A stretch of DNA of 64,000 nucleotides from Mya arenaria (lineage: Eukaryota; Mollusca; Bivalvia; Myida; Myidae). Each line of letters starts with the position of its first letter. The first letter of the stretch is position 1. The DNA lies in the NCBI RefSeq assembly GCF_026914265.1, contig NC_069122.1, positions 34,275,473-34,339,472 on the forward strand. Direction: 5' to 3'. A program made the position numbers and the translations under genes. The notes below the pieces were generated by a model. The model saw only the letters and a program-made list of their open reading frames with translations, made no database searches and had not been told where the DNA came from. This document shows, in pieces, positions 8,101 to 57,410 of the stretch.

Positions 8101-11100
8101 AAATGGTATACGTAAGTATTATACCTCACTAGACCTGCCCATGCTAACTTCTCATGTAACCATCATGTGCAATTTCATATTATGATAATACCTCACGTGA
8201 CCTGTTGACATGATACTGTCACATAACACGCGCGACAATTTTTTGTTTTCAAATTCTGAGGTGAAAAGCGCTTGATAAAATATGTTGTGAATCTGTAATT
8301 TTCGTTGTTACTTGTTATCAACTTTTCCAAACTTTTTCAATACAATTTGTTAATTTGTTTATCAATGCTGTCTTTGCTACATTTTTAGACTTTTATCAAT
8401 TGTTACAGAATAAAGTGATTACAAATGTACACTTGACAGTTGTGTGATGATGAAAGGACTATATCTTTTATTGTGCTCGTTATAATCAAATAATTGTGCA
8501 TGTCTGCCAGAAATGCTTCGCCTCGGGTAACAATATTTCCCAACTATTGACAATATGTACTGTAACACTGGAAGTAATGCGATATTTATATACTACCACA
8601 CTCTTGACAGTACAGTTTTGTCCAGTTGACATGATACTCCCACATAGCATGCACGTCTAATAATAAACCTTTTTTGTTTCCCCAAGTCTAAGGTGGAAAG
8701 CGCTTATTAAAATGTGATGTAAAACTGAAACTTCCGGTGTTTGCAACTTTTCCAAACTGTTCCAATAGCATTTTTTGTGTATCAATAATGTATTTATTAC
8801 ATTTTAGACTTGTATCATTTGTTAGAGAAATAATTACAAAATGAATTGATTAAATTTGAAAGTTGTGTAAGTGTGAAAGGACTACTTGTAATCACGGAAC
8901 TATAAACCATTGAACCGTGATATGTTACTGTGTTTTTATAGTTCAATAAATAGTGCATGTCAACTACCTCGGGTAACAGAATTTCCCTTTTGATGACAAT
9001 ATGAACTGTCACACTGGAACCCATGGGTATTTATATAATGTTTACCTAAGGTCTCGTATAGTTCCGGAAGTGTAGGCGACGACTACAGCGTCCTCCTCAG
9101 TGTTATATGCGAAGGCGGCATTGTTAGCGTCTCCGATCTGAATGGACTCTGACTTGTCGGAGTTGAGGATACATGTCTGAATTAAGTCGAATGTTAAAAA
9201 TATGCACATGATAAGCACACAATGGGCACTTAATAGACAAACTCAGTGTCCTACTATTTTCTTTGGCCATATGTACTGACTGCAAGAATAAAGAGTCCAT
9301 TTAATATCAAGTACTGTAGAGGAAATATAATTATATATACCTCCGTATGAATCAGAAAACATTGTGTATAACATAAATAGCATAAAGTACGTGTATTGCA
9401 TCATGATAATACAACTTTATCGCTGTAAGTTAGAGTGACGCTCTTATTCAAAATCGAAACATTCACATGTATATCCACCATACATTTCGACTGATAAACC
9501 TTTAACTACTTGCTGAATCATTTATGGAAAATATTTATTACTGATAACAAGATTGTAACCATGTATTTAACATCTGAAAATGCAAAAATATTAAATGATT
9601 GATGAATGCTAAAATATTAACTGTGATCTGTTATAGTTCCATAGTGTAGAAATACCGTGTTTTATGCACATTTCTTTTAAATTAAATTTGGTATCCTTCA
9701 TGAGAACCATTGTTTTCGACATTTACTCATCCTTTTCCGAATATTAAAACAATAGCTATAAAGGTGGTAAATCTTATGTGGGAGTAAGAGTGCATCTTTA
9801 TCGACCAATACCCTGACTTTTGATGTTTGCGGCATGCATGTACGATTGCATTTATGCAACAGGGATACACAACAAGACAGTGAGCTAATGTGTGCGACAA
9901 TTAAATATACACTCTTACTCCCAAATAAGATTTACCACAATTAATAATATTGTTTTAATATTCCAAAAAGGATGAATAAATGTCGAAAACAATTGTTCTT
10001 ATGAAGAATAATGTGCTTAAATTGAAGGAAATGTGCATAAAACATGGCATTTCTACCTTAAGAGACTATAGTAGACCACAGTAAATCTTTTAGCATTCAC
10101 CAACCATTTAATTTTTTTGCGCTTTCTTCTATTAAATTCACGGTTACAATCTTGTCAGTAGTTAATATTTTCCATAATTGCATTATTTAGAAAGTAGTTT
10201 TATCAGTCAAAATTTATGCTTGTTATACATGTGGATGTATTGATTTTGAATAAGAGTGTCACTTTAACGTTTACTACACTCATGGGTGGATACAATAAAT
10301 CGGCGCCAAACCATGGTATAAGGCCGTTGATAGAGTCAAACAATGCCACTGTGAGAAGGCATTTATGGACGACTTTCGATCGTATGTACAAACATGTAGA
10401 CACCAATGAATTTGAGTGAATAATTGTGTTGGCTTGACTTGATTTGACTTGACTTGCATTGGCAATTTGCAAACTTTACAGGAAATGCATATTAAGGTCA
10501 TGAATGCCCTAAGAAACATACTTGGCATATAACATTATTTGAAGTTATGCAGGCATATACTAATAATTTGTGATATATTTAGCATTAACAAACTTAAGGG
10601 GCTTGTTCACGATTTATAAGGCTTAACATGGAAACAAATCACCTGAAGTTTGAATATCATACTTGTTTCAATTATTAAAGATCATCAAGCGTTCCGATAT
10701 AGCTCTATTGTAAATAATGAAAGAAAACAAATTTGATAGAGCATGCTTCGTTTTACCGAAAAGCGTTAGTTACGCCATTTGAAATAAAATGATTTTAGAC
10801 GTGATGTTGTTTTTTGTTGTTTGTGTTTTGATGTTATTGAAACTTTATTTATTAAACAATTAACATACTCACATACATACGTTATATCTATTACTATGTT
10901 TAATTAAAAATCTGCCATTTGCTATTTGTTTATAAAAGTTAGTAAACAAAAAAATCTATATACTATAAAACAATTGTTGCCGCCATGAAAACAATGAACA
11001 AGTTCCCTTTAAAACTTACCGCAGCCGCGCTGCATGATTTCTCTGTGAAGCCTTTGCAGGGGTTGTATGAGTAATAGTTGCCTTCCTCACTTGAAAGGTC

Positions 11101-16680: not shown

Positions 16681-17093
16681 CACGTGGTATACACACACTG
16701 ATAGCGGAGGTTGCAAAAAACACACTGGCCGAAATTTTACACATATAAAGACTTTCAAGATCTAAATGGTTTTAAATCATTTGTGGACAGTTTAAAGTTT
16801 TAAAATGGATTTCTCCGCCGCGTGATACTTCCTTTTCTGTAAGACAATGTACTTCCGAGCGAGAAAAGAATAACCAGATATATTTACTATTTCTTTTTTT
16901 TACCTTAAGAAATGTTAAACAAAATTACTATAAACATAATTATTAAAATATAATTGTTTTTTATGTGTGTGTTAACACGAATCACAGCAATGCTTGTAAA
17001 GAGCGTCCAAATGATATTGATCGACATCACAGACGCTTCATTCTAGTCGTCCGCACTTATGTCCGTACTAGCTCACGTATGACGTCATCAGGT

Positions 17094-17217
17094 TCAATAG
17101 TGGCGGTTGTTGTTGGCCGGTTGTTCGAAGTACATAAAGTCCTGTTATATAAAAAAATGTTTAATGAAAGTGCTTGGTTATGGCGAGTTGGGGTTGTTTT
17201 GGCGAGAGGGACAGGTT

Positions 17218-17255
<38 letters not shown>

Positions 17256-17311
17256 TAGATGGAGAGAGATGGAGAGAGTGAGAGAGAGAGAGAGAGAGAG
17301 ATGGAGAGAGC

Positions 17312-17369
<58 letters not shown>

Positions 17370-20300
17370 ATATATATATAGTCATAAACTCGTAATAAAA
17401 TGTGTGCATATTAAGTTTTATGATATATACTACTGGATCTTTTTATACTAAGTACAAAAATATTCATAATTTCTGACACAATAGGTTTACAAGAACATTT
17501 AAGTGTTTTGAGTGTTTTTCAAAAAACTGATTCTCATTTCAGCATCTATTTCAGAAGAAGTACACCATGTATTATTTTGAGGGACTCGAATCTTACTTTT
17601 AACTTGATCCGAAGAGAAACAACATCTCACTTTTAAAATATTTTTTTTATATTTCTAGATATCAGTCTTAGTGGCTGAGTGGCTACGCTATCGGTTTTTC
17701 TTAGAATACCAGGGGTCGTATTCATAAAGAATCTTAAAGGGGCTGTCTCACGTATGATTAATTAGCAAAAAAAAACATTGTCGAAAACTGACATAAACTT
17801 GTCATCGATGTGTACAATGCATTGAAACTTACTAACTGAAGTACCACATAGTTAACAATTTATTTAAGTTTAGCAGTTATTTCGTATTTTACAATTAAAA
17901 AAGATTACTGAGTATGTCTACCAGGTAGAATTCATTCCTTATGCGTGATTGGCTAGTCGGTGTTATCACGTGATATTACCGAGGTAGGTGTATAGCTTAA
18001 TTATGTCACCCGATTAGTATAAGCCTTTGTAGCTCAGTGAGTAAGACGCCGGACTTCAATTTGGCGACGCGGGTTCGAACCCGGTCTCCGACACAATTTT
18101 TTTTTACATTTTGGTACTTTTTTTACAATTACGATATCAAAGCGATTCTATTAGATAATTGTCCTGAGATTCGTTACAGAAAAAAACTTTTTTTTGGTGC
18201 CAATCTGTGACACAGTCCCTTTAAGTCATTTCTTAACCTAAGTCAATTTCTTAAAATGTTCATTGTCAAATTAAGAGATGGATAAGTGCTGTTAACAATT
18301 AAGTATGTTTTTTTCAGTAATGTCAATGAAAATGATGTCTTTTGGAAATTCTATAAAAAAAATATTTCATATGACTGAAGAGAGATACTAAAATTAGGAA
18401 AGTGACTTAAGTAAGGAAATGACTTAATAAGTTTGATGAATACCGTCCCAGAAGTTCTTTTTTTAAGCTTTGATTTTACTTACAATGAGGAAACATGTTC
18501 CAAGCATCGTCGCCTTCATCTTGACGTCAAGATCCATGGGAACTAAAACATATATTCAAATATTTTTGTAATTCAGATTCATGCAACCGGAACGCAAAGT
18601 ATACAACCCAAACATGTATTATACAGGTCTATATAAAAGTCATACTAAGTCATCTGGCCCCAATTTCTCGAACTTCTGAAGTCCCTTAAAACAGGATTAA
18701 GCTAATATCAATATTTTTGTTGTTCTATAAATTGTGTTTTATTTACTTCTTCAAGAACTTTTAGAAACTATGGAGGAATAATCTGTATGATTATCCAAAT
18801 AAACCATTTTTCATTTATCAAAACCCATTTTAAGTATGTATTTTGGCTAATTGAAATATGCGACTTAAGCCTGTAAAGCTTAAGAAGTTTCGAGAAATTG
18901 ATCGAACGTTTGTAAAATCTACCATGATGAAAAAAACTTCATGATTTTGTCAAAATAAAATATCATTGACTAAAAGCAAACTGAAGAAAAGCAACAATAG
19001 GCTGTCTAAACAATTTTAATGACGGAATTCTTCCCAGATCATTATGCACCAGTCAATTGTAACCACGGCCCCCGACCCCCAGGTCCGGGGGTATACCGGG
19101 ATAGCCGGGGAATTGGGCAGTGTTTTTACCTTCAAGGTGGCCTCGCAGTGCCATGTGAATGCGGTGGTTTTGGGGTGCAGGGGCATTTGGCGGTGATTTT
19201 ACCAGCGGTTCGTCCCCGCAGGGCGGGTATTTATCCGGGCTTGGCTGGACCGAAAGTCAAAGTCCCCGCTTTTCCCCGGTATTGGTCTTGGTTACAATTT
19301 ACTGGTTCAGTATTATATAAATCACATGGCTCCCAGTGTGACATTACATATTGACAACATGAGGGAAATACTGTTATACGAGGCGAGGATGAGCATATAT
19401 GTAAGTTACAGATTTACAACGCTTTACAACTCAAAACTTGGGAAACCGAAATTGTCTATTTTTAGACACACGTGCTATGCGACGGTATCATGTCAACTGG
19501 TCAAAACCGTACTGGCAGTGTGTGTTGTGGCAGTAGGAAATTGCCCATGATGGGTTAATGAGAATTCAACATGGGAAGTTCACGCGAGGTATAAAAATAT
19601 TAAATATCACGCCTCCATCATGAATGACGCAACCCCATTGGTCCAGGACTTGTCACGCGGTGACCCCAATTTTTTCCGTATTGGGTCACCAATTATATCG
19701 TACAAAATGGCGTCTATTTTCCGATTCCGATGAATATTCCGATGAATAACGCACCAGTTAAACATTTGAACAGGCTTCGCTCTCATCCGATATGATTTGC
19801 TTTGCCCCATATATCCCATATCGGGTCACCTTCTAAGATTGTATACAAGATCGCTACGAAAGAAACGGTAACGCTTGTGTTTTATTGTTTCAGTCAGTGC
19901 ATAATACAATATAATTCAATATACAATATGTATTACAATCTGATATATGGGAATTGCTAAACATGTGTGCATTTCCTTCAGCTTTAAAGAAATATTTGGC
20001 AAATACCTCTACTTTTCAAATTGTAAAGCCCCAGATTAGCTAATAAATGACAAAAAATGAGAAAATGGAGATTATCAAAACATACATGAGATGCCAAAGT
20101 TATCCGCCTGCGTGAACATTTCCTTCATCATTCCGGCCCACTGCTTGGTGACCTTTCCCACCTCCGACCCGTCTTTGGCGGAGATCACCTGCAAAATGGG
20201 AGACAATTCGATAAAGGGAAGTAACTCAGACACGTCTCTGGTCGAGGAGAGATGGTTTCAATACCATTTATGCAATGTCAAGGTCAGCAACTCCACTCAT

Positions 20301-23300
20301 ATTCGATCCAACTCAGGCGGATATCAATGAAATATTGTTGACGTATATCACCTGCAAAATGGGAGATAATTTGATAATAGGGACGTATCTCAGATTCGTG
20401 CCTGGTCGAGGAGGGATGGTTTCATTATAATACCATTTATAAATGCAATGTCAAGGATAGCAACTCCACTAATCTCTGATCCATCACAAGCGAATATCAA
20501 TGAATGATTAATTGTTGACGGATATTACCTTCAACGGGGGAGAACATTAATATTAAACGTCGTCAAGGGTGGTAACTCGTTCCAACGGGCGTGACCTGTT
20601 TTAATGGAGATTATTTGAAACCACGATGTCAATGACAGCTGATACGTTTTAACCCCCTCAATCAGACTATGATAAAATCTCTTTAAAGTGACTCGCTCAT
20701 TTTTGTTTGGACCTAAAATCAGTTTTTTCCGGTTATGCATCTGAAAACACTTACTTTATCATTATTTCACCTTTTGATATAGAAAGTGCAGAAAAATTAC
20801 AGTTATAGCATAAAAAAGTATTTTGGTTAAAGTGGTGTTCCCACGCCGGTAAAGTCAATATATTTTTTTAGAAAATAGCCGGCTAGTCCATACGGCCACA
20901 GGGATTTTATCAGTTGGATATGTTTACCTGTTAAGGTTACATTGATAACATCACGTGATAATGTCAATCAACCAAGCACGCAACACCACAGCCGTAATTA
21001 ATTTTCAATCGCGATATAAACGCCAATGAAAATTGTGGTCTTCAACGACGATATTTGAGCAAACATCAACATTTGCTGAAGGGTTCCAGCTTTTGGTATT
21101 TGTGTTTTAACACTCCTTATGATTTGCCACACTTTATTTTGTAATTAAAAAATGCGTTTTACAAACCATGAGTGAGTCACTTTTAACGTTGTAATGATGA
21201 ATAATATATGTTGTCGAGGACGATAACCCGATCATTACTCGGCGGATGAAACTAAAAACAGAAAACTGATGATACGAAAGAATTGTAAAAGACAGTAATT
21301 TGTGTGCGTAATAGAAAAAGCGTTACACATACTGAAATATCGTTAACAAAGTCCAAAAAGTTTAGAAGCAGGAAAGATAAATATAACAGTTTAGAATTTG
21401 AAAAAGCTGGTTTAATTACAAATGTTTGCCACAAAGTCGGTAGCGCTGTTACATGTATGTTTGTCAACGCGGCAAAGAGTATATATACAGTGGAGGCAAA
21501 CACTCACTTTGAATTCGATGTCCGTGCACGGGATCATGCAGAGGGTCCTTCTATAGAGAGAACCTCGTTCTGGTCGGCGTCCAGGATCCCAAACCGGGGA
21601 GGACAGGGGCTACATCTGGGGACACCAATGGGACTGTGATTATACAGGCTGAACGCAAATATATGTGATTATCTGTGTGTGATGAGGTATGCTGGCTGAT
21701 TGATGTCATTGCGTGTTTACGCGTGGCGAAAATACGTTATAATAATGCGGCATATATTCGCCACCTGATAATAACACGTAAAAGTGATAATGTTTTCAAA
21801 CCATTCATAGCAAACCCTTATCATACTTCTGCTTGACATATCCCACGGTGACCCCCACATGTGCCTCTATGGCGATCACGTGAGCGCAGCAGTCCATGCA
21901 TGCGAACCAGCAGCTATCACGCATACAACGGAACTCGCGCTGCAGGCGGACAACTTCCTGTTAAAAGAGAATTAAAATATGTAAATAAATGTGTTAAACT
22001 GAATAACATCAATTGCCATACAGCATTTAACGTGTTCGTATTATAATTTATCCAAAGATGACTTGACAGAAAATACTCCATGACATATATCAGTTTTTGA
22101 CGCTCCGTCAATCCTAGAACGTGACCCAACTGGCGCACTTAACAATGTTACTGTTGTACGTACATCGCCACATGGTCATAATGGGTAACACAAGTCTACA
22201 TGAAGGGTTTCATCTTGGTCTTTATTCACAATTTTAGGCATTGCATCCTTGCAAATTGATCTATGTACAAGTTGTAACGAAAGTTGTTAGACGACACAAT
22301 TAGCATGCATATATGTGTTAACCTTGTATCATTTAGATAATAAATAGAGCTAGGAATCTATAACTCAACAAGAATGCCATACCATTCCCGAATTGTCCGT
22401 AATGTGCATCGTGAATGATCGGTTTGCCTGGCAATACTGTCGCTCACACGCCCCGGACTCTACAATGAATGAACATGTTTGTGATCAAAAGTTCAAACAT
22501 GTATTCCAAATAAATTACATCGTCGGATATCTGCGATGAAGTACTGCGCTATGCTTCGTTGTGTACTCGTCTATGAAGGCAAATAACAATGCAGGCTTAT
22601 TAAAGAGTATTCAATTTAGCATGCGAGTTCATTGGAAGAAGAGTTTTGCCCTGCCTCATGCATATTCACGAGATTTGGTCGGTAAATGTCCACACGGTAT
22701 TTATAAAGGAGTGTAACGGAAGAAAATACCGTGGTTGCCGACGATGTCCAATTAATCGCACATTGTGAGACTAAAAATATGCTACAAAGAAGTACAGACT
22801 TATTTGGAATTAGCGTGTTAATACGGCCAATCTGGGTTGCTCTCCGCTTAGGTAATAGTGGTGTGTAACCGTTACACGTGTATAACTTTCTCATTCGGAA
22901 CTCCTCGGCCATTTTATCGAAAACAACCTTTGTTTTCGATAAAAATGGCCGAGGAGCTCCGAATGTAAATTTCTGAATTATAAATTCATGCCTCCCAAAA
23001 TAGATAAAGTAGAATGTCATCAGCCATAAACCATGATAGACGAGTCATTCCATTACAATTCATGACTGCGTACTGGTGTGGTAATATATTCTTGCAGGCC
23101 TATAATGCAAGATGGCAATCAGGCTTGAGAAAATGTTGTGTTGTACCATTCTTATGGCCATATTGAATAATATTAGCTGTGAAGCACGTTGGCTTTCAGA
23201 CCTAGACAAATACATTACTACTTTGTATGTACCATTCGGAACACCTCGGCCATTTATGCCGGTACATCAGAAAAGTAGTCCGTAAGATTTAAAATGATAG

Positions 23301-25371
23301 CATTGATTAATTGTAGTGTTTTGGCGTGTATTTTGTATCAATAAGTTTAAATTGGTTGCGAATGAAGTATATTATTGTATACATAATTGAGTTTCCCAAG
23401 AGTGAAGCCATTAATAAGTTTAACTGCTAAAGTGAAATTACTACGCAGTCTTCTTGCAACGTAGTAAAGATTTCTGACATTGTGAACCGTACATATCCAT
23501 CCGAGGTTGTTTTCGATAGAAAATGGCCGTTGTGTTCCGAAAGGGTGTGGACCAGTAGTTGCAGTTGTTTCCGATTTATAGACACTATCTTGGACAAGCT
23601 TCAACGATAAACCTAGACGTAACCGAGCCACCGGGGTCAAATACTAGTTAGCTTTATTGTTTGACCATGTTTTGGGTACAGACCTTCCTTAGCAAAGTAC
23701 ACCTTTTGCCCCATGCTGTTCATCAGGTGGTACTTGTTCTGATCTTCCCAAGGAGTAAACACTGAAATATATTTTATAAGAAACAGTTAACTACTGCTAA
23801 AAGTATATGCACAATTTTTAACAAATATAAAATAAACCACTGCTAACTGGAGTCAATGCCTAAAGTATGTCAGTGTTTAAACCACTGCTAACTGGAGTCA
23901 ATGCCTAAAGTATGTCAGTGTTTAAACCACTGCTAACTGGAGTCAATGCCTAAAGTATGTCAGTGTTTTATGCGAAGTACGGCAGGTTAATAGCCGTAAA
24001 ACGACAAACTTATTTTGTATTGCGCCTTCCGTTCCTTTGTGGTGATTTGTGCTACTCACATCCCAGCATGTCAATCTGTTGTTTGACCAGTATTTGGTCA
24101 ATCTCCGTCAAGTACTCAAGCCCTGGGGGACACCCAGGCACTGAGGGTTTGGGCATCCATACTACCGGTGCCTGATTCCCGCCCGGAATCCCTGAAAATA
24201 CACATTGTTTATGCTATACGAAATACATTATCAATTCGACGTATATTCTATGCAGTAAATTAATACCAAGACCATCAGTAAGATGAACATGATAATTAAT
24301 TTCTGCTCCTTGTGAGGTTAATTGTTGTTTTTACGTTTTGTATATTTATTGATGTTCTAAAGCTTTAAGCACAATAAATACGACATTTATTTTCATTGAT
24401 TTATGTCGTTTTAGAGTTGAACAAAAGAATACTTGGTACTATGTATTGCAATAGTAAATACCAATCCAAGTGTAAAATATGTGTTAGTATCATCGATGGT
24501 TTATGTTTATGTCAGTCCTTGACAGATATGTCCCTTGTCGCTAATTTTCTATATCACGAATCGTACATATTATCGAGTATGTTGTAAGTGTTACCGGTAC
24601 GTGGAATGCTAAAACGCACATACATATTGGTTTCAGATAGTTGTCATTCGGAACACATTTATCAAACATTTGTTTGTGAAAATGAAAAGAATAGAAAACT
24701 GTAAGATCAATGACAAAATGTATGTTTGCCTCGAAACGTGTCGACCAATTAACCTGCTTTGAGGAAGTTATTGCAATTATAATTTTAAGATTATTTGAAA
24801 AAGTGAACAAAAAAACTCTAAGATGAGATGTGTTATTCATTTCTTTAATAAAACCTTCAGTATTGTACAGCAGGGCACTCAGACCTGCAATCTGATAGAC
24901 AGCACAGGGTATTAAAGATTAAGATCAAAACACAGAAGTTGTGTATTATACACGGATTGGGGCACTTATAGAAGGCTTAAACTAAGCGATTAAATATTTA
25001 CAATGACTACCCCGACAACCTTGAGTACCAATCTAACAAATACATTAACAGAAAGAGCAATACCAATCAAATACTCTTTGCTACAAGCAACTACTAGGCA
25101 GAAGTATTTTTCGTTCTACCGTCTCCAAGTACAGTAAACTATTAATTTCTTGAGATGAATGTGCAAACAAAAGTTCGAAGAATTACCTAGTGTGTATTTT
25201 ATTGTAGTGAGAGCAGGTTAAGGGACATTTATAAATAGGTTTGTAGGTCTTTCATTCGTATTTGCTAGAAATAGTAGTATACTTAAGTTAACGAGCCTCG
25301 TATATAGGCCAATCAATAAGATGTATTCCATAGCTGGTACAACGCATACCTGTTGAGTCGGTAGTTGACAT
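17094..25371 (-). CDS. Phospholipid scramblase (PLSCR family)
   Basis: Nine coding exons on the minus strand: 25350-25371 (from the ATG), 24060-24191, 23684-23761, 22383-22459, 21827-21957, 21508-21615, 20086-20188, 18484-18542, 17094-17141. All have GT-AG borders and matching phases, and the product is about 252 residues. It carries the family landmarks: CPPGLEYLTEIDQILVKQQ near residue 28, NKYHLMNSMGQKVYFAKE, a Cys-rich stretch (FRCMRDSCWFACMDCC), VGYVKQKCSPCPPRFGI, DADQNEVLSIEGP, ADNFGISFPMDLDVKMKA, and the C-terminal helix GTCFLIDFMYFE. Scramblases bind calcium and move phospholipids between leaflets. The calcium loop here starts Q where human PLSCR1 has D. Exon 6 is one base short: a CCC run at 21543-21545 (plus-strand GGG) would need one more base, so the frame breaks there. 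That may be an assembly error, since everything else is intact. The first exon may be joined to the upstream B-box exon; see the findings. Confidence 0.93.
17221..17366. repeat. (GA)n microsatellite
   Basis: Long GA tract with a few ATGGAGA interruptions, ending in a G-run and (TA)n. It lies in the last intron of the scramblase gene. Frames through it only encode Arg-Glu or Ser-Leu repeats. Confidence 0.95.
17734..18224 (+). mobile_element. TTAA-ended element with internal tRNA-like promoter
   Basis: A 491-bp element with inverted ends TTAAAGGGGCTGTCTCACG at the left and TTAAAGGGACTGTGTCACAG as the reverse complement of the right. TTAA at both borders sits inside a host element, as expected for TTAA target duplication. 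The middle holds a tRNA-like sequence with A and B boxes at about 18027-18090. Terminal inverted repeats together with a pol III promoter make it a hybrid between MITE and SINE architecture. Confidence 0.8.
18024..18094 (+). other. tRNA-like sequence (pol III A and B boxes), not a functional tRNA
   Basis: A-box-like TAGCTCAGTGAGTA and B box GGGTTCGAACCC, the latter a perfect T-arm. The presumed acceptor strands (GCCTTTG and CTCCGAC) do not pair. The anticodon stem is weak with an eight-base loop. It is therefore read as the promoter part of the surrounding element rather than as a tRNA gene. Confidence 0.75.
18656..18904. mobile_element. Inverted-repeat element (CAATTTCTCGAA ends)
   Basis: A 249-bp non-coding element with ends CAATTTCTCGAACTTCTGAA and, as the reverse complement of the right, CAATTTCTCGAAACTTCTTA. 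It lies in scramblase intron 7. Confidence 0.75.
19045..19309. mobile_element. GC-rich MITE, family 2, copy 3
   Basis: A 265-bp member with ends TGCACCAGTCAATTGTAACC and ACAATTTACTGGTTCA and the GC-rich core CCAGGTCCGGGGGTATACC. The open frame through it (19019-19354) is only a by-product of its GC content. Confidence 0.85.
19325..19600 (+). repeat. Dispersed repeat (TCACGTGACCTG family)
   Basis: Matches 26700-27125 in words such as CACACGTGCTATGCGACGG, ATGTCAACTGGTCAAAACCG, AGGAAATTGCCCATGATGGG and ACATGGGAAGTTCACG. It is not coding. Confidence 0.65.
20184..20530. repeat. Tandem duplication of an intron-exon border
   Basis: Two copies of about 165 bases, starting ATCACCTGCAAAATGGGAGA at 20184 and again at 20350. 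The unit includes the splice acceptor and first bases of scramblase exon 7, so a second, decoy acceptor lies upstream of the real one. The copies diverge by scattered changes. Confidence 0.7.
20682..21186. mobile_element. TTAA-ended MITE, family 4
   Basis: A 505-bp element with inverted ends TTTAAAGTGACTCGCTCAT at the left and TTAAAAGTGACTCACTCATG as the reverse complement of the right. It lies in scramblase intron 6 and is not coding. Confidence 0.75.
22892..22965. repeat. Perfect-type hairpin (CATTCGGA arms)
   Basis: Arms CATTCGGAACTCCTCGGCC and GGCCGAGGAGCTCCGAATG, continuing ATTTTATCGAAAACAA and its complement, meet with almost no loop. Single-arm relatives occur at 23227-23255 and about 23498-23540, so this is part of a dispersed family in scramblase intron 3. 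Confidence 0.75.
23834..23968. repeat. 45-bp tandem repeat, three copies
   Basis: Three identical or nearly identical 45-bp units (AAACCACTGCTAACTGGAGT...) at 23834, 23879 and 23924, in scramblase intron 2. The near-identity points to a recent origin. Confidence 0.95.
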
Positions 25372-25427
25372 CGTTTTCCTCAGGGAACCCCTTTGTGCTG
25401 TTAGTGCAGGTTTGTCAAGGTAGCTTT
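25350..25427 (-). CDS. Linker exon shared by the TRIM-like copy A and the scramblase
   Basis: A 78-bp phase-1/phase-1 exon between acceptor AAAACAG and donor GTATGCG. It is open throughout: ESYLDKPALTAQRGSLRKT followed by MSTTDSTG. The last 32 bases match the linker exon of TRIM copy C at about 25 positions, including the internal ATG, and the translations align as TAQRGSLRKTMSTTDSTG and TVQGDGNRKTMATAECTG. In the TRIM-NHL genes this exon sits between the coiled-coil exon and the NHL exon; here the next exon is scramblase exon 2. It can either start the scramblase at its ATG (25369-25371) or be read through from the B-box exon. Confidence 0.8.
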
Positions 25428-25645
25428 CTGTTTTAAATACAGAACACAATTTACACGTTTTAGAATTTTTTTATCAAATCAATTATAAAATGTGTTGGTT
25501 GCATTCTTTGCAAATCGTTTTTTTTTAATTTCAGTATTTTTCTTTAATTGATAGTGTTGAATTTTGAAACACTCCACATGTATGCATTGACGTATTTAAG
25601 GTGTGTTCAAAGTTTTAACTTTTACTTTTAATACATCATACATAC

Positions 25646-26546
25646 CTAATGCTGTTCTATCTTCAGTATGTATCGTCTTTAATGTCCCAATGCCAGTCCC
25701 AGATGCAATCAGACGTTCTGTGACTGGATCCGTTATGAATTCGTAGTGGTGAATGACATTGTTCTTGTTTATGTTAGCAAAGTCATTCTGCAGACACTCT
25801 AATTTCTTCTTGGCTTTTTTGGTCGCTATGAACGACTGGATCGTGTTGATATTCTGTGCTTCAAGTGTGTCATTTATTTCTTCAAGCTTGGACTTAAGGT
25901 GTGTATATTTCAGTTTTAGAGCCCCTAGTTGTTTTTCATCTACATTTTTCATCTTTTCTATTAACGTTAACAGTGCTTGTTCTCTCTCATCAAAATACTT
26001 GTTAACTTCATCTCGATATTTTCTCAGCTTGTACACTTCATTCTCACCAAGCTTTGCTACAACGTCAACGTCCTTCTCCACATCAGACGCGCGTAAATTA
26101 ATTTCTTCAAATAACCTGGCAATTGCTTTTGTAATATTTCCATACTCTTTGCCATCTTTGAATGCCTGAGATATATCTGATATGACATCAGCATGACACG
26201 ACCGATGATCCTGCACTGCACAGTGTCCACAAATCAGGGTCTGGTGGTTGGGGCAGAAGTATTTGATAATCTCTTTGGGATGTATAACACAAGGCTCTGT
26301 GCATTCAACTTCATCTTCTTGGTCTATGATAGATGTAGGCATTGTGGACTTGTCAAGAAGGATATGGGATTTAGAAATCTTCTGTTTTCTATGGACACTT
26401 GCGCATTTAGAGCAGAAAAACTCATTGCAGACGGTACAATATGCCTCAGCAGGGAGGGTTTCGCCTTCACAGGGCTGGCAGTAGGCTGTTTTCTCTGTTT
26501 TCTCTGCATTTGGCCGTGATTGTAGTTTTTTCCCCGGAACCTCCAT
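25646..26546 (-). CDS. B-box/coiled-coil exon of TRIM-like copy A (no RING)
   Basis: One large exon of 300 codons plus one base, starting at the ATG after acceptor ACTTTAG (26558-26564) and ending at donor GTATGTATG. Residues about 22-60 form a B-box 1 zinc finger (CQPC, CTVC, CSKC, H, H). Residues about 87-122 form B-box 2 (CVIH, CPNH, CGHC, HRSCH). Residues about 140-270 are heptad-rich coiled coil. There is no RING finger, so direct E3 ligase activity is not expected. TRIM-like proteins of this make-up usually act as oligomeric scaffolds. No NHL exon follows on the same strand. The next exon with a matching phase is the linker at 25350-25427, which leads into the scramblase. If the donor is not used, translation stops at 25596. 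The exon is intact. Confidence 0.9.
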
Positions 26547-26699
26547 AGTCCGGTAATCTAAAGTTAGGAAAATGTAATATACTTTCTTATCGCTTGTCTT
26601 TGACAATCTGAAGTCCGTTTGTCAAACAATACAAGCATACAATACATTGTATGTATCCAGAAAGAGTATGATCCTGATAATATATAAATATTGTATTAT

Positions 26700-27125
26700 A
26701 TAAGTATTAACCCGAATGTTGACAATATGTACTGTCACACTGGAAGCCATGCAATATTTATTTTATTATACCGAACACAGTTACTTTTATATACATATTT
26801 AAAGATTGTTTACCATTACACAACCTTCAAGTGTAATCAATTTATTCTGTAATTATTGTTTGTTTACATTAGCTGTCATTTTGTTGCAAATGTCGCTTAG
26901 AAATAATGCAAACACCGGTTGTACCCATATTTACAACACATTTTAATAAGCGCTTACCACTTCAGACTTTGGAAACCAAAAAAATGCTATTTTAAGACAC
27001 GCGTGCTATGTGACAGTAATAATGTCAACCGGTCAAAACGGTACTGTCAGTGTGGCAGTAAGAAATTGCCCATGATGGGTATATGAGAAATTAACATGGG
27101 CAGGTCACGTGAGGTAAAATAATAT
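26700..27125 (+). repeat. Dispersed repeat (TCACGTGACCTG family)
   Basis: Related to 8120-9035 (opposite sense) and 19325-19600. It contains TGACAATATGTACTGTCACA, AAACGGTACTGTCAGTGTGG and TGGGCAGGTCACGTGAGG. It lies in the 5' UTR intron of TRIM copy A. Confidence 0.65.
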
Positions 27126-27774
27126 AAAATATTTAACAATTGAAAGGATGAAATAGTGCATGAATATAGCGGGAAAAAATCAAAAACACGCGAATTGGCT
27201 CATTTTCAAGATTAAAATAAAACACGCGTTCACTTGTAGTCCCATACATTATCGTATACTGTGCGATACATATATCGTGCACCGTCTTTGGTGGAAGGAA
27301 CAGACACATGCAGATGTAGATTTACCTTGTTATAAATATTGTGCGAGTTAGAACGCAATTATTTTATATGCACGCTTGTTATTTAAGGTCGCCCTTGACA
27401 ACACGGTACAAAACATTTACCTGTCCCACTGCTCTCTTGACCGTTCCTGTTGTGGGGGCAGTAACTATTTCATAATGTTGTGTTATAGATTTCAAGATTA
27501 TAATCTTATAGTTTTAATTTGTACTTAGTATAATATGTTAGCTCAAACAGTTAAAAACATAAACAATTTTACTTCAGATGTCATGTCATTGACGTAATCC
27601 AAAATCGAAACTAGAAAAAAATGTCTAAAAACAGTATATAGGTAATATCCCAGCTTTTAAACACTGATTACGTGACATGTAAATGATACAACACATACTC
27701 AGAAAACATGATTTTAATTGTATATAGAATAAATGAAATATAATTAAATGTTGTTATTAAAACTAAGTTCTTAC

Positions 27775-31806: not shown

Positions 31807-32710
31807 AAACATCATCAGCGGATGTATGTACGAGCCACACAAAGTCACCACCTAATACATAATCATCGTCTCTGTCTGTATGAGCCATACATTGCCGACC
31901 ACAGTAAACATCATCAGCGTCTGTCTTAATGAGCCACACATCGCACCCGCCTTATACATCATCAGCGTCTGTCTGTAAGAGTTACACCCCCACAAACCTA
32001 AAACATATTCAGCGCCTGTCTGTGCGAGCCACACACCGCCACTACATTATACATCATCAACTTCTGTCTGTACGAGCCACACACGGCCACCACCTAATCA
32101 GTGTCTGTCTGAATGAGCCACACATCGCATCCGCCTTATACATCATCCGCGTATGTCTGTAAGTCTTACACCGCCACCACTACCACCTAAAACATCATCA
32201 GCGCCTGTCTGTACGAGCCACACACCGCCACTTCCTTATACATTATCAGCGTCTGTCTGTTAGAGAAACACCGCTATCACCACCTAAATATCATCAGCAT
32301 CGGTCTGTACGTGCCACACAACGTTATCATCTAATACATATTCAGTGTCTGTCTGTACGAGCAACACTGCCACTATAACCTTATCACCATCAGCGTATGT
32401 ATGTACGTGCCACATAACATTATCATCTAATACATCATCAGCGTATGTCTGTACGTGCCAGACACCATGATCATCTAATACATCATCAGCGTCTGTCTGT
32501 ACGTGCCACAAAACGTTATCATCTAATACATATTCAGCGTATGTCTGAACGAGCAACACCGCCACTATCGCTTTATCACCATCAGCGTCTGTCTGTACGT
32601 GCCAAAAAACATTATCATCTAATTCATCATCAGCGTATGTCTGTACGTGCCAGACACAATGATCATCTAATACATCATCAGCGTCTGTCTGTACGTGTCA
32701 AACATCAATA
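31807..32710 (+). repeat. 48-bp minisatellite, left block (diverged)
   Basis: About 18 degenerate units of the same repeat as 33809-36035 (CATCATCAGCGTCTGTCTGT, ACGTGCCACAC, ATTATCATCTAATA). This block is more diverged, with length variants. It has no gene function; open frames on both strands arise from the three-divisible unit. Confidence 0.9.
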
Positions 32711-33649
32711 TTTACATCCGTACTTGATTTTCTGTACGCTAAAAATTCATTTTGCATGAACCGGTCGACCTTTCGTGACCTTTGTAGGCGGAGTTTGGCA
32801 ACAAAGCAACGCTCTGATTGGGCGTAGTGATCTTACTACGATCTACTTTATTGCTAAATATAGCATGGCACATGTTCTGTTGAATGCCGGCTTGTTTACA
32901 TGTTTCTTTTGAGGTTTTACGAAGAATTTAAATGAAAGACATTATTTTCTAGAAATATCATTTGGAAAATGCTTCATTTTGCATTTGATAACCAAAGAAC
33001 AGTCATTGAACAAATAATAAAGGCAAATTAAAATTGACACGGTTTTTACTACGGTTTTTCTGTAACAACTGTAAAAACAAACATGGCTGATGATTCTAAG
33101 TTCGGCGATTTCTTTCTAGGACAGATGTTTTTGTTCGAACAAACGTCTTAATATTGACAATTCGAGAAGACTAGCACATCACAACACTTCAATACCTTTG
33201 CGAATGTTAAAAGACAACAAACTAATGAAATTATGACGCTATAATTACCTTGAACTGTAAGTTATTCATGAAATCACCATGACTTCATTTTTTATGCCCT
33301 CTCACATGGGTCATGCATATGTAAAACATGAGTTAAAATGTATCGAAAGTTCTCTTGATTAAAATGAATATATTACAACAAAAATCATTATTACCTCCAC
33401 ACATTTTACAAAAACTACCAAATGATTAAAATAGTCTTTGATTATTTATTTATTTCTGCAAATAACTTATGGACTATTTATTATGCGGAGGATAAAAAAT
33501 ACGCATAGCTTAAACACCAAGGGCAACAAGTGCTCTTACCATTTACATTCGCTCTTCACGTTTTGTTCCCCTTTGTTGTAATTAAAGGCTTATTCTCAAT
33601 CACTATATGGTCGAAAAAAAAAACAAATAAGAAGGAAAAAATGTAAATA
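32711..33649. other. Unique sequence between the satellite blocks
   Basis: Separates the two minisatellite blocks. A small open frame at 33083 (MADDSKFGDFFLGQ...) has 22 codons and no support. No domain was recognised. Confidence 0.45.
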
Positions 33650-33808
33650 TAAGGATTGATCCATATTTTTGTGCGTTCATGCAGTATGAACGCTCGGCCG
33701 CGATTTTGCATATTTTGAAAAAACCGCTAACGCGGTTTATGCATATGCAAAATCGCGGCCGAGCGTTCATACTGCATGAACGCACAAAAAATATGAATCA
33801 ATCCTTAA
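33650..33808. mobile_element. Long palindrome (foldback/MITE) at the satellite border
   Basis: Arms of about 64-68 bases (AAGGATTGATCCATATTTTT, GTGCGTTCATGCAGTATGAA, CGCTCGGCCGCGATTTTGCA) match almost perfectly as inverted copies. The short centre itself folds (AAACCGCTAACGCGGTTT). It abuts the right satellite block. Confidence 0.85.
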
Positions 33809-36035
33809 TTATCATCTAATACATCATCAGCGTGTGTCTGTACGTGCCACACAACATTATCACCTAATACACATCAGCATCTGTCTGTACGTGCCACTCA
33901 ACATTATCACCTAATACATCATCAGCATCTGTCTGTAAGTGCCACACAACATTATCACCTAATACATCATCAGTGTCTGTCTGTAAGTGCCACACAACAT
34001 TATCACCTAATACATCATCAGCATCTGTCTGTAAGTGCCACACAACATTATCACCTTATACATCATCAGCATCTGTCTGTAAATGCCACACAACATTATC
34101 ACCTTATACATCATCAGCATCTGTCTGTAAGTGCCACACAACATTATCACCTAATACATCATCAGCATCTGTCTGTAAGTGCCACACAACATTATCACCT
34201 AATACATCATCAGCATCTGTCTGTAAGTGCCACACAACATTATCACCTTATACATCATCAGCATCTGTCTGTAAGTGCCACACAACATTATCACCTAATA
34301 CATCATCAGTGTCTGTCTGTAAGTGCCACACAACATTATCACCTAATACATCATCAGCATCTGTCTGTAAGTGCCACACAACATTATCACCTAATACATC
34401 ATCAGCGACAGTCTGTAAGTGCCACACAACATTATCACCTAATACATCATCAGCATCTGTCTGTAAGTGCCACACAACATTATCACCTAATACATCATCA
34501 GTGTCTGTCTGTACATGCCACACAACATTAGCATCTAATACATCATCAGCGTCTGTTTGTACGTGCCAAACAACATTATCATCTAATACATCTCCAGCGT
34601 GTGTCTTGACGTGCCAAACAACATTATCATCTAATACATCATCAGCGTATGTATGTACGTGCCACACAACATTATCATCTAATACATCTCCAGCGTGTGT
34701 CTTGACGTGCCAAACAACATTATCATCTAATACATCATCAGCGTATGTATGTACGTGCCACACAACATAATCATCTTATACATCATCAGCGTATGTCTGT
34801 ACGTGCCACACACCATTATCACCTAATACATCATCAGCGTCTGTCTGTACGTGCTACACAACATCATCACTTTATTCATGATCAGCGTCTGTCTGTACGT
34901 GCCACACAACGTTATCATCTAATACATATTCAGCGTATGTCTGTACGAGCAACACCGCCACTATCACTTTATCACCATCAGCGTCTGTCTGTACGTGCCA
35001 AACAACATCATCATCTAATACATCATCAGAGTATGTCTGTACGTGCCAGACACAATGATCATCTAATACATCATCAGCGTCTGTCTGTACGTGTCAAACA
35101 ACATTATCATCTAATACATCATCAGCGTGTGTCTGTACGTGCAACAAAACATAATCATCGTATACATCATCAGCGTCTGTCTGTACATGCCACACAACAT
35201 TATCACCTATTACATCATCAGCGTCTGTCTGTAAGTGCCACACAACGTTATCACCTTATACATCATCAGCGACAGTCTGTACTTGCCACACAACGTTATC
35301 ACCTTATACATCATCAGCGTCTGTTTGTACGTGCCAAACAACATTATCATCTATTACATCGTCAGCGTCTGTCTGTAAGTGCCACACAACGTTATCACCT
35401 TATACATCATCAGCGACAGTCTGTACTTGCCACACAACGTTATCACCTTATACATCATCAGCGTCTGTCTGTACATGCCACACAACATTATCACCTATTA
35501 CATCATCAGCGTCTGTCTGTACATGCCACACAACATTATCACCTATTACATCATCAGCGTCTGTCTGTACGTGCCACACAACGTTATCACCTTATACATC
35601 ATCAGCGTCTGTTTGTACGTGCCAAACAACATTATCATCTATTACATCATCAGCGTCTGTTTGTAAGTGCCACACAACGTTATCACCTTATACATCATCA
35701 GCGACAGTCTGTACTTGCCACACAACGTTATCACCTTATACATCATCAGCGTCTGTTTGCACGTGCCACACAACATAATCATCTTATACATCATCAGCAT
35801 ATGTCTATACGTGCCACACACCATTATCACCTAATACATCATCAGCGTCTGTCTGTACGTGCCACTCAACATAATCACTTGATACATCATCAGCGTCTGT
35901 CTGTACGTTCCACACAACATAATCATCTTATGCATCATCAGCGTATGTATGTACGTGCCACACAACATCACCATCTAATACATCATCAGCGTCTGTCTGT
36001 ACGTGCCACTCAATATTAGCATCTAATACCTCATT
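33809..36035 (+). repeat. 48-bp minisatellite, right block
   Basis: About 46 units of 48 bases (CATCATCAGCATCTGTCTGT, AAGTGCCACACAACATTATC, ACCTAATA). The left third is nearly homogeneous. The rest has variant units, some alternating in pairs (34555-34760) or in higher-order groups (ACAGTCTGTACTTGCC units at 35268-35725). Because 48 is divisible by three and stops are rare, frames of 265 and 424 codons (plus) and 171 codons (minus) stay open. The same array is open in different frames and on both strands, which argues against a real protein. Confidence 0.93.
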
Positions 36036-37539: not shown

Positions 37540-40500
37540 TTATCCGATTGTATTGAACACTTTGACTGAACTCTTCGCATATTCCGTGACAAGAATCTTT
37601 CTCTGTTGCGGACAGTAGTAGGCATACATTGGATGTTGTATCCCCTCCTTCTCCCCCATCAGTTGTGTCATCTGACCAGTGGACGAATCAAGAATCATAA
37701 TGGTGTTACTTTCATAACTACAGGTTAAAAGATGGTCCCCAAGTGCCATAATACTTTCGATGCAGGGTCCTGGAACGTCTTAATGATGTTCAGGGCGATG
37801 TCAAGTTTTGAGATTGTGTACCTCCTCCTGTCTGATACGTAGATGAAAGCAGTCGAACCTTCACCCACCACTACTAAATAGGCAGGCCAATTGAACAGTT
37901 CCTTTCCACTGCCATCCCTTTCTATTTGCCTTATAACATGCCCGTTCATATTCAGTACCGCTAACTTTCCATTATAGAAGGACACTATCAGCGTATCTTC
38001 ATGATAAGCAATACCTCGACAGTCACCATCTACTTTGATAGGGTCACCAATAGCGAGTTGTCCTCGAGTCTTTAGGAACTGAATACCTTTATTGGCCATA
38101 GTAACAGCCACCTGGTCCACAGGTAAATGACATATGTCCCATGGCCGACCCGGTACACTGATCTGGGAGACCAGGCTGTTAGTCTGCATGTCCATCACTT
38201 TGACATTGTTGTTGGTAAAGTCAGCTATCAGTAGTCTTGACCCAGCAAGGTGGAGCATGCGAGACAGGTAGGAGTCCCGGTTGTCAGTTGACGTCGTCAT
38301 CGTGATGTCAATAGCTGGTGTAAAGCGTCTTTTGGTCAAATCAGCAATGCCCTGCCTCACTGTATTGATTGATTTGTAGTGAATGAAATATTTGTGTTAT
38401 AATTGCACCCTATCAAAGTATAAGTTTAAACTTCAGCATAAAGCAGTACGTTTCTTTATCCCATTGCCATATTAGGAAACGTCATGCAATACATGTTTTA
38501 ATTTAGGCTTATCAACACAACGCTACGTATTATAGCAATTTGAAATTAACATATATCATAAGACAAATTATACAAAGCACATAATAGGAATATAAAGGTC
38601 ATTAAACAATCCGGATCGGAGGGCGGATATGAACGCGAGGCAGTAGGCGGGACTGACTAGGATGCAGGTCAAGGACCCGTTAACATAAACACTATCACGT
38701 GGAATGTGTGCGGTTTAAGAAAATTAACTGATAATAAACATTTTACAAGCTATTTGCAATCGTTTGACATTATTGGTCTCTTTGAAACGTGGAGTGATTT
38801 TAGTAATGAATTTGAGAATTTGCTTGCTAATTTTACATATTTTGATTGTGTTAGATCAAAATCCTTAAATGCCTTGCGTAATAGTAGTGGAATAGCTGTT
38901 TACATTAAGAATAATTTGTTGAAAAATGATTTTATTACTAGAATATGCCATGAATATACAGATTGCGTAGTATTCTATATCAACAGTACTATATATTGTT
39001 CTATGCACGATATAATATTATATGTTGCTTATGTCTCACTCGAGGGCTCGAACATTTATAACAATAGAGATGACAAAAATGGAATTAAATCTATTGATAA
39101 TAATATTTCAATTTTACGAAATAAGTATCCCGGTTCATATTTTTATCTAGCTGGGGATTTTAATGCCCTTACGAAAGAAATGTTACATTCCAGATGATAA
39201 TCTGCAAAACATTTTTAATACTGATGTTGGATATAATTCAGACAATTTTGAGTTACCTCGCAATAACAAAGATAAAATAGGATATAATAACTTTGGGAAA
39301 TCTCTTATTGAGCTATGTTGTACTCATAACATACATATTTTAAATTGACGTATTTATGACGACATTGTTGGCAATTTTACATGTATAACATATAATGGTG
39401 CAAGTGTTGTTGATTATCATATATGTCTACTGAGCTTTTTTCTCCTATAAGTTCTTTCAGTGTCACAATGCGCGATGAGTCGGATCATTTACCAGTTTGT
39501 TCTAAATTGTCATTCTTCCTAGATAGAATAGAGCATACTGATGAAAACTTAGCGGGACCACCAAACGACGATGGTTTTGTACGTGTAGAAAAGTTTAAAT
39601 GGAATTCGCATGTTAAGATGAATTTTTAACGTTATTTGCAAATAAATGTAATACGCTCGTCGCTCAAATCGCACTTGAAATTAAAAAATATATAAATGAC
39701 GCGGTTGAGAAAATACTTGGACTTTATCGGGATTCTGCTTATATGATGCGCGTAAATAACCGTGATCCAACAAATCGCGATGTAATTTTAAACAATCAAC
39801 CCTGGTGGGATAGAGATTGTGCTTTAGCTAAACAATTAAAGTAGACATTTCAAAATTACGTGTTTCACTAAGAGGCAATTGTACCAGCTAAAAGGAATGA
39901 GCTAGTATTATCTAGTTGTAATCCAAAATCCTTTTGGAAATTGTTAAAAATGTCCCAACGTAATAGAAAACAAGAGCTTCTGCGCGTAGGCCCTGCTACA
40001 TGGCGGAACTATTTTCGAGGATTATTGTTTCATGAAGATCAACCAAACCTGAACGATATAGCTTTTGACACGAATAGATTTAATGAAGAATATGATTCCA
40101 TTTAATTGTGATATCACTGACGGGGAGGTTATTGCAAGCATTTCAAAATTGAAAAAGAAAACATCTCAGGGACCTGATGGATTTGGGGCTGAATTTTACC
40201 AAAGTACAAAACAAACCATAACTCCAGTGTTGCGTCAATTATTTAATAGGGTTTTAAATACGGGTGTATTTCCGGATATTTGGAGAGATAGTATTATTGT
40301 CCCAGTGCACAAGTCGGGCTCTAAAGAAGACCCGTCAAATTACAGGGGTATTATTCTTATAAACTTTATGTATAAAATATTTTCAAATATAATACATGAC
40401 AGTTTATGTGCATGGTCGGAACAGTTTAACAAAAATTGATGAGGCACAAGCTGGATTTCGGACTGGTTATTCGACAACAGATAATATATTTACTTTGCAA

Positions 40501-43305: not shown

Positions 43306-44176
43306 TGCCCGGGTATCTAACGCGATCAAACGTATAGTTATAGAATATAGTGTATGCATTTCCGAACATAATTCCTCTATAATAATTTCATTTCTTTCAT
43401 TTGAATGGATGTTACATTGCATTATTGGCGTTAATTAAGTGCGAATGTCAGTGTTAAAATGTTATAACTTCCGTTCATTCAAAATCACACGAAAAGAACC
43501 TCATCACTAAAATATAATGGATCTAAAGCCCTTATCAGTATGGTATATTGTACGATATAAGTATATATTAGGATACGTTAGGATTTCGTGCCAGATACAC
43601 AGTAACTACTAGCATATAGCAGTTCTTTGCCAACACTGAAAGCATTGCAATTATGTGTGAGAGTTTGTTTTTGTGTTCCTTTATACATATACATAATCTC
43701 CTATATCAGAACATAAAGAAGAAGGCGAAGGCTTAACCGTGCTATAAGTATCGAGGCGATAAATTACAGCATAACTTAAATATAATCAGGCTAGTTATTG
43801 AATCAGTCCTTTATAACATGAAAAATGACCAATCAATTCGTCTAATACTCTCGTAATTGTTTGAATAACACAAGTGCAGACCTTATAACAAATGAAAGCC
43901 TATAGTTTTCAAGATTATAATCTTAAAGTTTATTATTGCGCGGATATGTAAGTTAAATCAGTTAAATAAACTAATAGTCTACTTTAGAATACATGCGGTT
44001 TTTTAAATGTCACTAAATCGAAACTAGATAAAATCATTTTTAAAAAAGTATATATAATAAAACAAATAATATCCCAGGTTTTAAAAAAATGAAATGTACA
44101 TGCTACAACAACCCTCAGAAAACATTATAATACTTTGAAATAATGTTACGAATATAAGAATGACATAAATTATAAC

Positions 44177-56950: not shown

Positions 56951-56955
56951 TATTG

Positions 56956-57410
56956 TCAATTTCATTTTCAGATAACGCGCATAAATCAATGTTTTCAAAT
57001 AACTTGGCAATTGTTTTAATGACATCTCTCTCGGTCATCTTTGAAGGCCTTGGATTTATCTGATATTACCTCTGCATGGCACGATCTATGGTTCTACACA
57101 GCACAGTGTCCACAAATCAGGGTCTGGTGGGTGCTGCAAAAGTATTAAATAGACTTTTCGGATTGATATCACAAGGTACTGTGCATTCATATTCACCTTT
57201 ATGGCCACCGATTGATGTAGGCATATTTGATTTGTCAAGAAAGGAATGAGATCTAGACATCTTCTGTTTCCTATGAAAACTTGCGCAGTGAGAGCAAACT
57301 GTACAGTAGAACTCAACAGAGAGGAATTCATCATCTTGTTTACAATGCTGGCAGTAGGTTGTGTCCTCTGCATTTGGCCCTGCTTGCAGTTTCTTCCCAC
57401 GAACCTCCAT
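56956..57410 (-). pseudogene. TRIM-like copy D, truncated B-box remnant
   Basis: Starts with MEVRGKKLQAGPNAEDTTYC and the B-box 1 region, but about seven residues around the second Cys pair are missing (CTVCSHCASFH against CTVCNEFFCSKCASVH in copy A). The frame then shifts within B-box 2 (CDINPKSLFNTF). Homology can be followed to about 56956, near the start of the coiled coil, where the 55-bp tandem array begins. Linker and NHL exons are absent. Not expected to make a working protein. Confidence 0.8.

Follow-up and report, generated by a model that had tools for sequence, protein, structure and literature searches.

Swaps of the C-terminal domain in the TRIM family can give new immune effectors, the example being primate TRIM5-cyclophilin (TRIMCyp), in which a retrotransposed, intronless cyclophilin was gained and the fusion works. 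Among bivalve gene families a B-box orthogroup has been tabulated, and a TRIM-scramblase architecture does not appear in that tabulation as far as the available portion of the paper extends (PMC8382680); no paper among the matches listed from the open-licence PMC literature has a TRIM-scramblase fusion as its subject by title. The Mya arenaria locus described here lies in a window of 64,000 nucleotides (the whole stretch of DNA that was analysed) and is, judging from its sequence, a real chimera, in which a TRIM-like 5' half is joined in phase to a copy of a phospholipid scramblase gene, and one that is probably decaying. Exons of the two families lie on one strand, with matching phases, as follows.

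25646 to 26546, minus strand: TRIM-like exon for B-box 1, B-box 2 and coiled coil, without a RING, with an ATG at 26546 and a phase-1 donor (Pfam, homology, AlphaFold/Foldseek)
25428 to 25645, minus strand: intron 1, 218 bp, which fails to align with its counterparts in copies C and E
25350 to 25427, minus strand: TRIM-family linker exon, 78 bp, phase 1 to 1 (similarity to copies C and D; gene model P0046)
24192 to 25349, minus strand: intron 2, 1158 bp, presumed site of the breakpoint, in which neither an NHL exon nor a proline-rich scramblase exon is seen
24060 to 24191, minus strand: scramblase exon 2 (tblastn with P0001, 98%; splice sites)
23684 to 23761, minus strand: scramblase exon 3 (tblastn; splice sites)
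22383 to 22459, minus strand: scramblase exon 4 (tblastn; splice sites)
21827 to 21957, minus strand: scramblase exon 5, with its donor at 21827, phase 2 (tblastn; splice sites)
21508 to 21615, minus strand: scramblase exon 6, site of the frame lesion (tblastn; splice sites; translation of the joined frame)
20086 to 20188, minus strand: scramblase exon 7 (tblastn; splice sites)
18484 to 18542, minus strand: scramblase exon 8 (tblastn with Dreissena P0002, 95%; splice sites)
17094 to 17141, minus strand: scramblase exon 9, with the stop (tblastn; splice sites)

The first exon is open over 300 codons and ends at its phase-1 donor, intact as the earlier note on this DNA had read it. Both PF00643 and PF22586 exceed the Pfam cut-off, giving two B-box zinc fingers, and the adjoining coiled coil is predicted by an AlphaFold model with a long helix at residues 133-230 (mean pLDDT 77.5, pTM 0.41). 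No RING is found in this exon by a Pfam scan at E 0.001, and the first part is thus that of a TRIM-like B-box/coiled-coil protein rather than a canonical TRIM E3. The B-box/coiled-coil part has a profile match to TRIM28 (E 6.4e-18), and Foldseek returns TRIM28 (E 1.7e-06, with low TM-scores), the B-box/coiled coil of TRIM5alpha (E 1e-03) and, among its other matches, the TRIM-cyclophilin chimera structure 5va4. All ten Cys/His columns that are invariant across a 28-row alignment (A2, made without P0121, P0137, P0142, P0146 and P0148) are present, and the starting sequence MEVPGKK is common to many of the 30 B-box proteins listed. The exon is 69% identical to P0128, the exons of which lie at 53179-50464 in the window, and no record among the matches listed in two database searches is more than 73% identical to it. 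Compared with copy C it has a pairwise dN/dS of 0.39, and on its own branch 10 codon changes are silent and 20 replacing, similar to the 8 and 20 of broken copy E.

The frame closes soon past this exon (ORF 26621-25596), four other Mya B-box proteins (P0133, P0139, P0165, P0166) appear, by their tails, to run past the exon into the intron, and tblastn shows a further two B-box copies of the window to be broken. These observations favour a reading in which the two halves would be adjoining relics that were never co-spliced, one a TRIM-like gene without its NHL exon, with the B-box exon ending in its own intron to give 316 residues, and the other a scramblase without its first exon. A linker exon with good splice sites remains between the halves, and the deposited Mya gene model P0046 joins that linker to scramblase exon 2, both of which argue against such relics and leave them an unlikely explanation.

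The linker exon is open from phase 1 to phase 1, as was claimed, and scramblase exon 2 accepts phase 1; the splice borders are AG/GT. Phase and openness alone are weak evidence, because the interval has 27 AG..GT pairs 45-200 bases apart, the linker exon among them, that make open exons of phase 1-1. That the linker is a chance open stretch is ruled out by comparison across the whole window, where its homology to TRIM linkers stands above chance: 31 of 48 bases match intact copies C and D, and the best other position among approximately 127,900 reaches 26 and 25, respectively. The linker is a diverged TRIM-NHL linker exon. Over its last 32 bases, for which about 25 matches to copy C had been estimated, the count is exactly 25; the corresponding count with degraded copy E is 18 of 32, a value reached at 25 positions, and no local DNA similarity of the linker to copy E is detected (p 0.61). 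With a 27-column protein profile built from 14 Mya protein linkers, of which two belong to genes of the window, the linker ranks fourth in the window after three other linkers, with an E of 0.39 that is below threshold.

P0046 uses the junction of the linker with scramblase exon 2 and starts at the Met at 25371 within the linker (MSTTDSTG). This model fits the second possibility raised in the earlier note, a scramblase whose first coding exon is a captured TRIM linker and which would have a promoter of its own, in intron 1 or in the linker; the start coincides exactly, and P0046 is probably a product of the MAKER annotation of Mya arenaria that, according to the available part of its description, was supplied with a six-tissue transcriptome (PMC10663159). 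Three points weigh on the other side, which together make such a capture quite improbable: the start Met is the counterpart of an internal Met of TRIM linkers, the frame lesion in exon 6 applies equally, and P0046 leaves out exons 4 and 6, which is how a gene predictor would steer around the lesion. P0046 also omits parts of exons 3, 5 and 8, and since the shortening of exon 8 is common to P0001, not every piece skipped reflects the lesion.

The absence of an NHL exon between the linker and scramblase exon 2, also reported by the earlier note, holds in a tblastn search at E up to 20, which is empty there; the strong NHL matches of the window are confined to three stretches, 37.5-38.4, 50.1-51.0 and 62.6-63.4 kb. 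A further, weak NHL match overlaps scramblase exon 6 in antisense, at 21444-21656 on the opposite strand; it has an E of 0.011 at 27% and contains a stop. A proline-rich N-terminus is usual, not universal, in scramblases: by eye, the N-terminus is proline-rich and long in P0001 and in six of the nine other rows of the scramblase alignment A1, and short in P0002, P0042 and P0045. None is found for this locus: the first exon encoding it (the P0001 N-terminus, about 48 residues) has no credible minus-strand match in the window among the best 40 matches. A candidate upstream first exon, the best match with an E of 0.026, was rejected as lying on the plus strand at 15 kb. No RNA families or tRNAs are found in the window. 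Intron 1 fails to align with that of copies C and E, and intron 2 with that of copies C, D and E, whereas introns of the other copies do align with each other (C-E for intron 1; C-D, C-E and D-E for intron 2), so that intron alignment does not place the breakpoint. Assembly is difficult in tandem families and at high heterozygosity, and the window comes from one assembly only, so two unlinked loci might have been misassembled into one. Against this very remote explanation, no run of N occurs in 16800-27200, and no part of the 1158 bp of intron 2 is repeated elsewhere in the window at E 1e-3.

Scramblase exons 2-9 have canonical splice sites and phases that agree both before and beyond exon 6, and their homology to the scramblase domain is strong (PF03803, 254.6 bits, E 8.1e-76, from a query with X at the lesion). 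The Pfam and database queries and the first row of A1 are wrong at a few residues where exons 5 and 6 meet, and the core counts skip gap columns and X. The exons are identical to the Mya paralogue P0001 in 203 of 214 core columns (95%; 88% identity in the database listing), and P0001 lies on a contig with the same listed length (63,369,314) as the contig of this locus. Seven of the 11 differences can be polarised by Dreissena P0002, and all seven are changes in the window copy, four of them at columns that are invariant in P0001 and nine other scramblases. These ten aligned sequences were picked from the best 45 of 120 listed database matches; P0046 was excluded from the counts, as it is this locus. 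No PDB sequence matches the scramblase at E 0.001. What looked like another frame lesion, between exons 5 and 6, disappears with the phase-2 donor at 21827. The one-base gap in exon 6 that had been described is present in the assembly, and the predicted length of 571 residues stands only if that gap is discounted, the joined frame stopping after residue 492, inside exon 6. The stop precedes exons 7-9, which are taken here to be the carriers of the calcium motif and the membrane helix, and a complete in-frame scramblase domain with those C-terminal elements is not found.

The bolder proposal of the earlier note, a calcium-responsive scramblase working on a TRIM scaffold, is not supported. It would require that transcription from the TRIM-like promoter yield a 571-residue protein with both B-boxes, the coiled coil, the linker and the whole scramblase, a young functional fusion in which the NHL propeller of a RING-less B-box/coiled-coil scaffold has given way to a scramblase domain and the lesion in exon 6 reflects either an error of the assembly or an allele that segregates. 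The agreement of splice sites and phases on both sides of exon 6, the open frame and both splice sites retained by the linker exon, and the open B-box exon with its full set of invariant residues are consistent with this proposal. The frame lesion and the loss of conserved residues at four invariant scramblase positions count against it, the nearest record to the B-box exon is at most 73% identical among the matches listed, and no protein with both B-box and scramblase domains is found among the matches listed in database searches, including 59 matches to the fused query for which domains are precomputed (scoring covered the 7,994 candidates with the most words in common); a working fusion is distinctly unlikely.

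The best explanation of the whole, with a probability of roughly 0.55, is a duplication chimera at the DNA level, the scramblase half of which is most likely decaying. The join itself looks genuine, and the overall interpretation of the earlier note is borne out to this extent: a TRIM-scramblase chimera in the DNA, with a linker of TRIM origin. The simplest origin would be a single duplication breakpoint in an intron, by which a TRIM-like gene exchanged its NHL exon for a scramblase copy without the first exon. One donor would be the 5' half of a B-box/coiled-coil-NHL gene, its first exon and linker ending in phase 1; the other, a duplicated scramblase gene, would contribute exons 2-9, which begin in phase 1. 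The scramblase copy would have lost its first exon and presumably its promoter, and transcripts reaching its exons would start most naturally at the TRIM-like promoter, with in-frame splicing via the linker. Such a transcript as assembled would encode two B-boxes, a coiled coil and, because the frame of exon 6 is broken, an incomplete scramblase domain that lacks exons 7-9; a short protein from the B-box/coiled-coil exon may still be made. Against decay, an old pseudogene would be expected to show more than a single lesion across eight scramblase exons that keep their splice sites, and the B-box exon is open, with the dN/dS relative to copy C given above, though the changes on its branch resemble those of broken copy E. 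The lesion could be an assembly error; the Mya arenaria assembly from which the window probably derives is described, in the part of the paper available, as PacBio FALCON-Unzip with 10x-read polishing (PMC10663159).

A TRIM-like 5' half that runs in phase into a different gene is the raw material of C-terminal swaps in a tandem family, and its value as such holds regardless of the success of this swap; if the fusion were expressed, its domain architecture would be one absent among the proteins listed in database searches. In the chimeric genes of Drosophila yakuba, as far as the available part of their description goes, tandem duplication joins parts of genes into new genes, as is proposed for the clam locus, which is known here from sequence alone (PMC5460883). 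The PLSCR family (PF03803; Mya P0001, Dreissena P0002) has exons 2-9 in common with the locus, in which no N-terminal exon of its own is found, exon 6 is broken and invariant residues are changed. The Mya B-box/coiled-coil-NHL family, represented in the window by LOC128238862 (P0128), has the same first exon, linker and phases, and the locus has scramblase exons at the place of the NHL exon. The likeness to TRIMCyp is that a TRIM-type B-box/coiled-coil 5' half is joined to an unrelated C-terminal domain by genomic rearrangement; unlike TRIMCyp, the clam locus has no RING, and its partner is an intron-bearing scramblase copy with a frame that is broken as assembled.

The TRIM-scramblase chimera that the earlier note had put forward as possible is, as assembled, real at the level of DNA, and comprises the following exons, listed with the linker exons of three other B-box/coiled-coil-NHL family members (copies C, D and E) in the window:

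26546-25646, minus strand, B-box/coiled-coil exon
25427-25350, minus strand, linker exon
24191-24060, minus strand, scramblase exon 2
23761-23684, minus strand, scramblase exon 3
22459-22383, minus strand, scramblase exon 4
21957-21827, minus strand, scramblase exon 5
21615-21508, minus strand, scramblase exon 6, which holds a frame lesion
20188-20086, minus strand, scramblase exon 7
18542-18484, minus strand, scramblase exon 8
17141-17094, minus strand, scramblase exon 9, with the stop
51373-51293, TRIM linker exon, copy C
63872-63792, TRIM linker exon, copy D
42231-42151, TRIM linker exon, copy E

The introns of the chimeric locus have GT-AG borders, and the phases along it (1, 1, 1, 1, 0, 2) are consistent up to exon 6, where the one-base gap claimed earlier is borne out, one base being missing relative to the frame of the paralogue. 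The joined frame has 492 open residues, or 173 if counted from the linker methionine, and exons 7-9 are open through to the stop in a frame of their own.

Taken together, its location, its phase, how it aligns at the donor and its DNA similarity identify the locus linker as a diverged TRIM linker exon. In an ungapped comparison anchored at the donor, with approximately 127,900 window positions as the background, it agrees with the copy C linker at 25 of the last 32 bases and 31 of the last 48, and with the copy D linker at 23 and 31; the highest unrelated scores over 48 bases are 26 for C and 25 for D, and Smith-Waterman scores against both copies exceed those of all 1,000 shuffles. The match to degraded copy E is 25 of 48 bases, barely over the next-best 24, with a non-discriminating 18 of 32 (equalled at 25 positions) and no excess over 1,000 shuffles by Smith-Waterman (p 0.61). 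A profile of 14 Mya linkers ranks the locus linker fourth in the window (E 0.39), behind the other three linkers there.

A single breakpoint between the linker and scramblase exon 2 would account for both the missing NHL exon and the missing scramblase first exon. Intron alignment, in which copies C, D and E align mutually where compared and the chimeric locus aligns with none of them, gave no position for the breakpoint. The closest protein to the scramblase part among the matches listed (P0001, a Mya paralogue, 88% identity) has a proline-rich N-terminus of approximately 48 residues that has no credible counterpart on the minus strand of the window. Since the start region that belonged to the scramblase copy is probably gone, the TRIM-like and scramblase parts may plausibly be co-transcribed. 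The evidence so far makes a functional TRIM-scramblase protein unlikely. The joined-sequence search, in which 7,994 candidates sharing most words were scored, returned 59 proteins, none with both a B-box and a scramblase domain in the precomputed domain column, and a top B-box-protein identity of 73%; the B-box exon plus linker returned 12 proteins, none over 70% identity. Given these low best identities, the B-box exon of the locus is without a close database record in the size ranges searched. With the scramblase query, a B-box is absent from the best 120 of 1,019 proteins.

Matches to the window come from three database proteins of the soft-shell clam, Mya arenaria, the species to which we assign the window. 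In P0128 (LOC128238862), the B-box exon (at 53179), the linker (51373-51293) and the NHL part (from 50964) are all identical to the window. In P0132, the linker (63872-63792) is identical and the NHL pieces at 62.6-63.4 kb are 99% identical, or 93% where a model edge is included; its B-box exon would fall beyond the window. P0046, a 'PLS2-like protein' of 159 amino acids, has 100% identity to the scramblase translation over the aligned parts; its annotation uses the junction 25350-24191 and omits exons 4 and 6 plus parts of exons 3, 5 and 8, as a gene predictor steering clear of the lesion might do, and the skipped part of exon 8 is also missing from P0001. PMC10663159 describes a Mya arenaria MAKER annotation built with RNA-seq, and we infer that P0046 originates from that annotation.

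The scramblase part matches PF03803 with 254.6 bits when an X is placed at the lesion. At the 11 differences from P0001 in 214 comparable core columns, the Dreissena scramblase P0002 sides with P0001 in seven and never with the window copy (one-sided binomial 0.008), and a count over nine other proteins favours P0001 by 9 to 1, one column being tied (one-sided binomial 0.011); four of the 11 fall in columns where P0001 and all nine of those proteins share one residue (glutamate, glutamine, cysteine or proline). This is how substitutions distribute under relaxed constraint. P0001 terminates in a shifted frame of the corresponding last exon (compared with window 17141-17060); the window copy retains the FEQPAN ending common to another database protein, P0003, which suggests a small change at the end of P0001 itself.

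The scramblase introns contain a 91% palindrome (22892-22965), two identical 46-bp direct repeats (23833-23968) and, in intron 8, a tRNA-like stretch with GGTTCGAACCC (18020-18090), by eye a tRNA-derived SINE, with no ARAGORN or Rfam match. A dispersed repeat lies between exons 7 and 8 (19293-19607) and, in the same orientation, immediately upstream of the B-box exon (26697-27132), with further copies in both orientations near 8-9 kb (8117-9049). An NHL-like tblastn match on the plus strand, antisense to exon 6 (21444-21656; E 0.011, 27%, containing a stop), is probably due to chance. Two more B-box/coiled-coil copies with frame breaks (42377-43434 and 56955-57467) belong to this tandem family and are decaying; between the copy E linker (42231) and NHL exon (38363) are endonuclease- and reverse-transcriptase-like ORFs (38661-41154), by eye a LINE-type element. 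A long array of HYHLIHHQRLSVRAT-type repeats (32284-36019), with several frames open on both strands, is not likely to be a gene.

The product of the first exon has two B-boxes and a coiled coil, with no RING found, according to Pfam. Its identity to the 27 aligned database proteins is 47-75% for 26 of them and 21% for the remaining one, and pairwise dN/dS of the exon against copy C is 0.39 (297 codons). Unique silent/replacing codon changes among three copies (183 codons) number 10/20 in the chimeric-locus copy, 7/8 in copy C and 8/20 in broken copy E, small counts that do not demonstrate preservation of the exon. The AlphaFold model (28 sequences; mean pLDDT 77.5, pTM 0.41) has a single long helix at residues 133-230. 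The best Foldseek row by E-value is a chain from a Toxoplasma ring complex; structures of TRIM28 and TRIM5alpha are also matched, with modest TM-scores, and TRIM28 is matched by the profile of the 28-row B-box-exon alignment with an E value of 6.4e-18.
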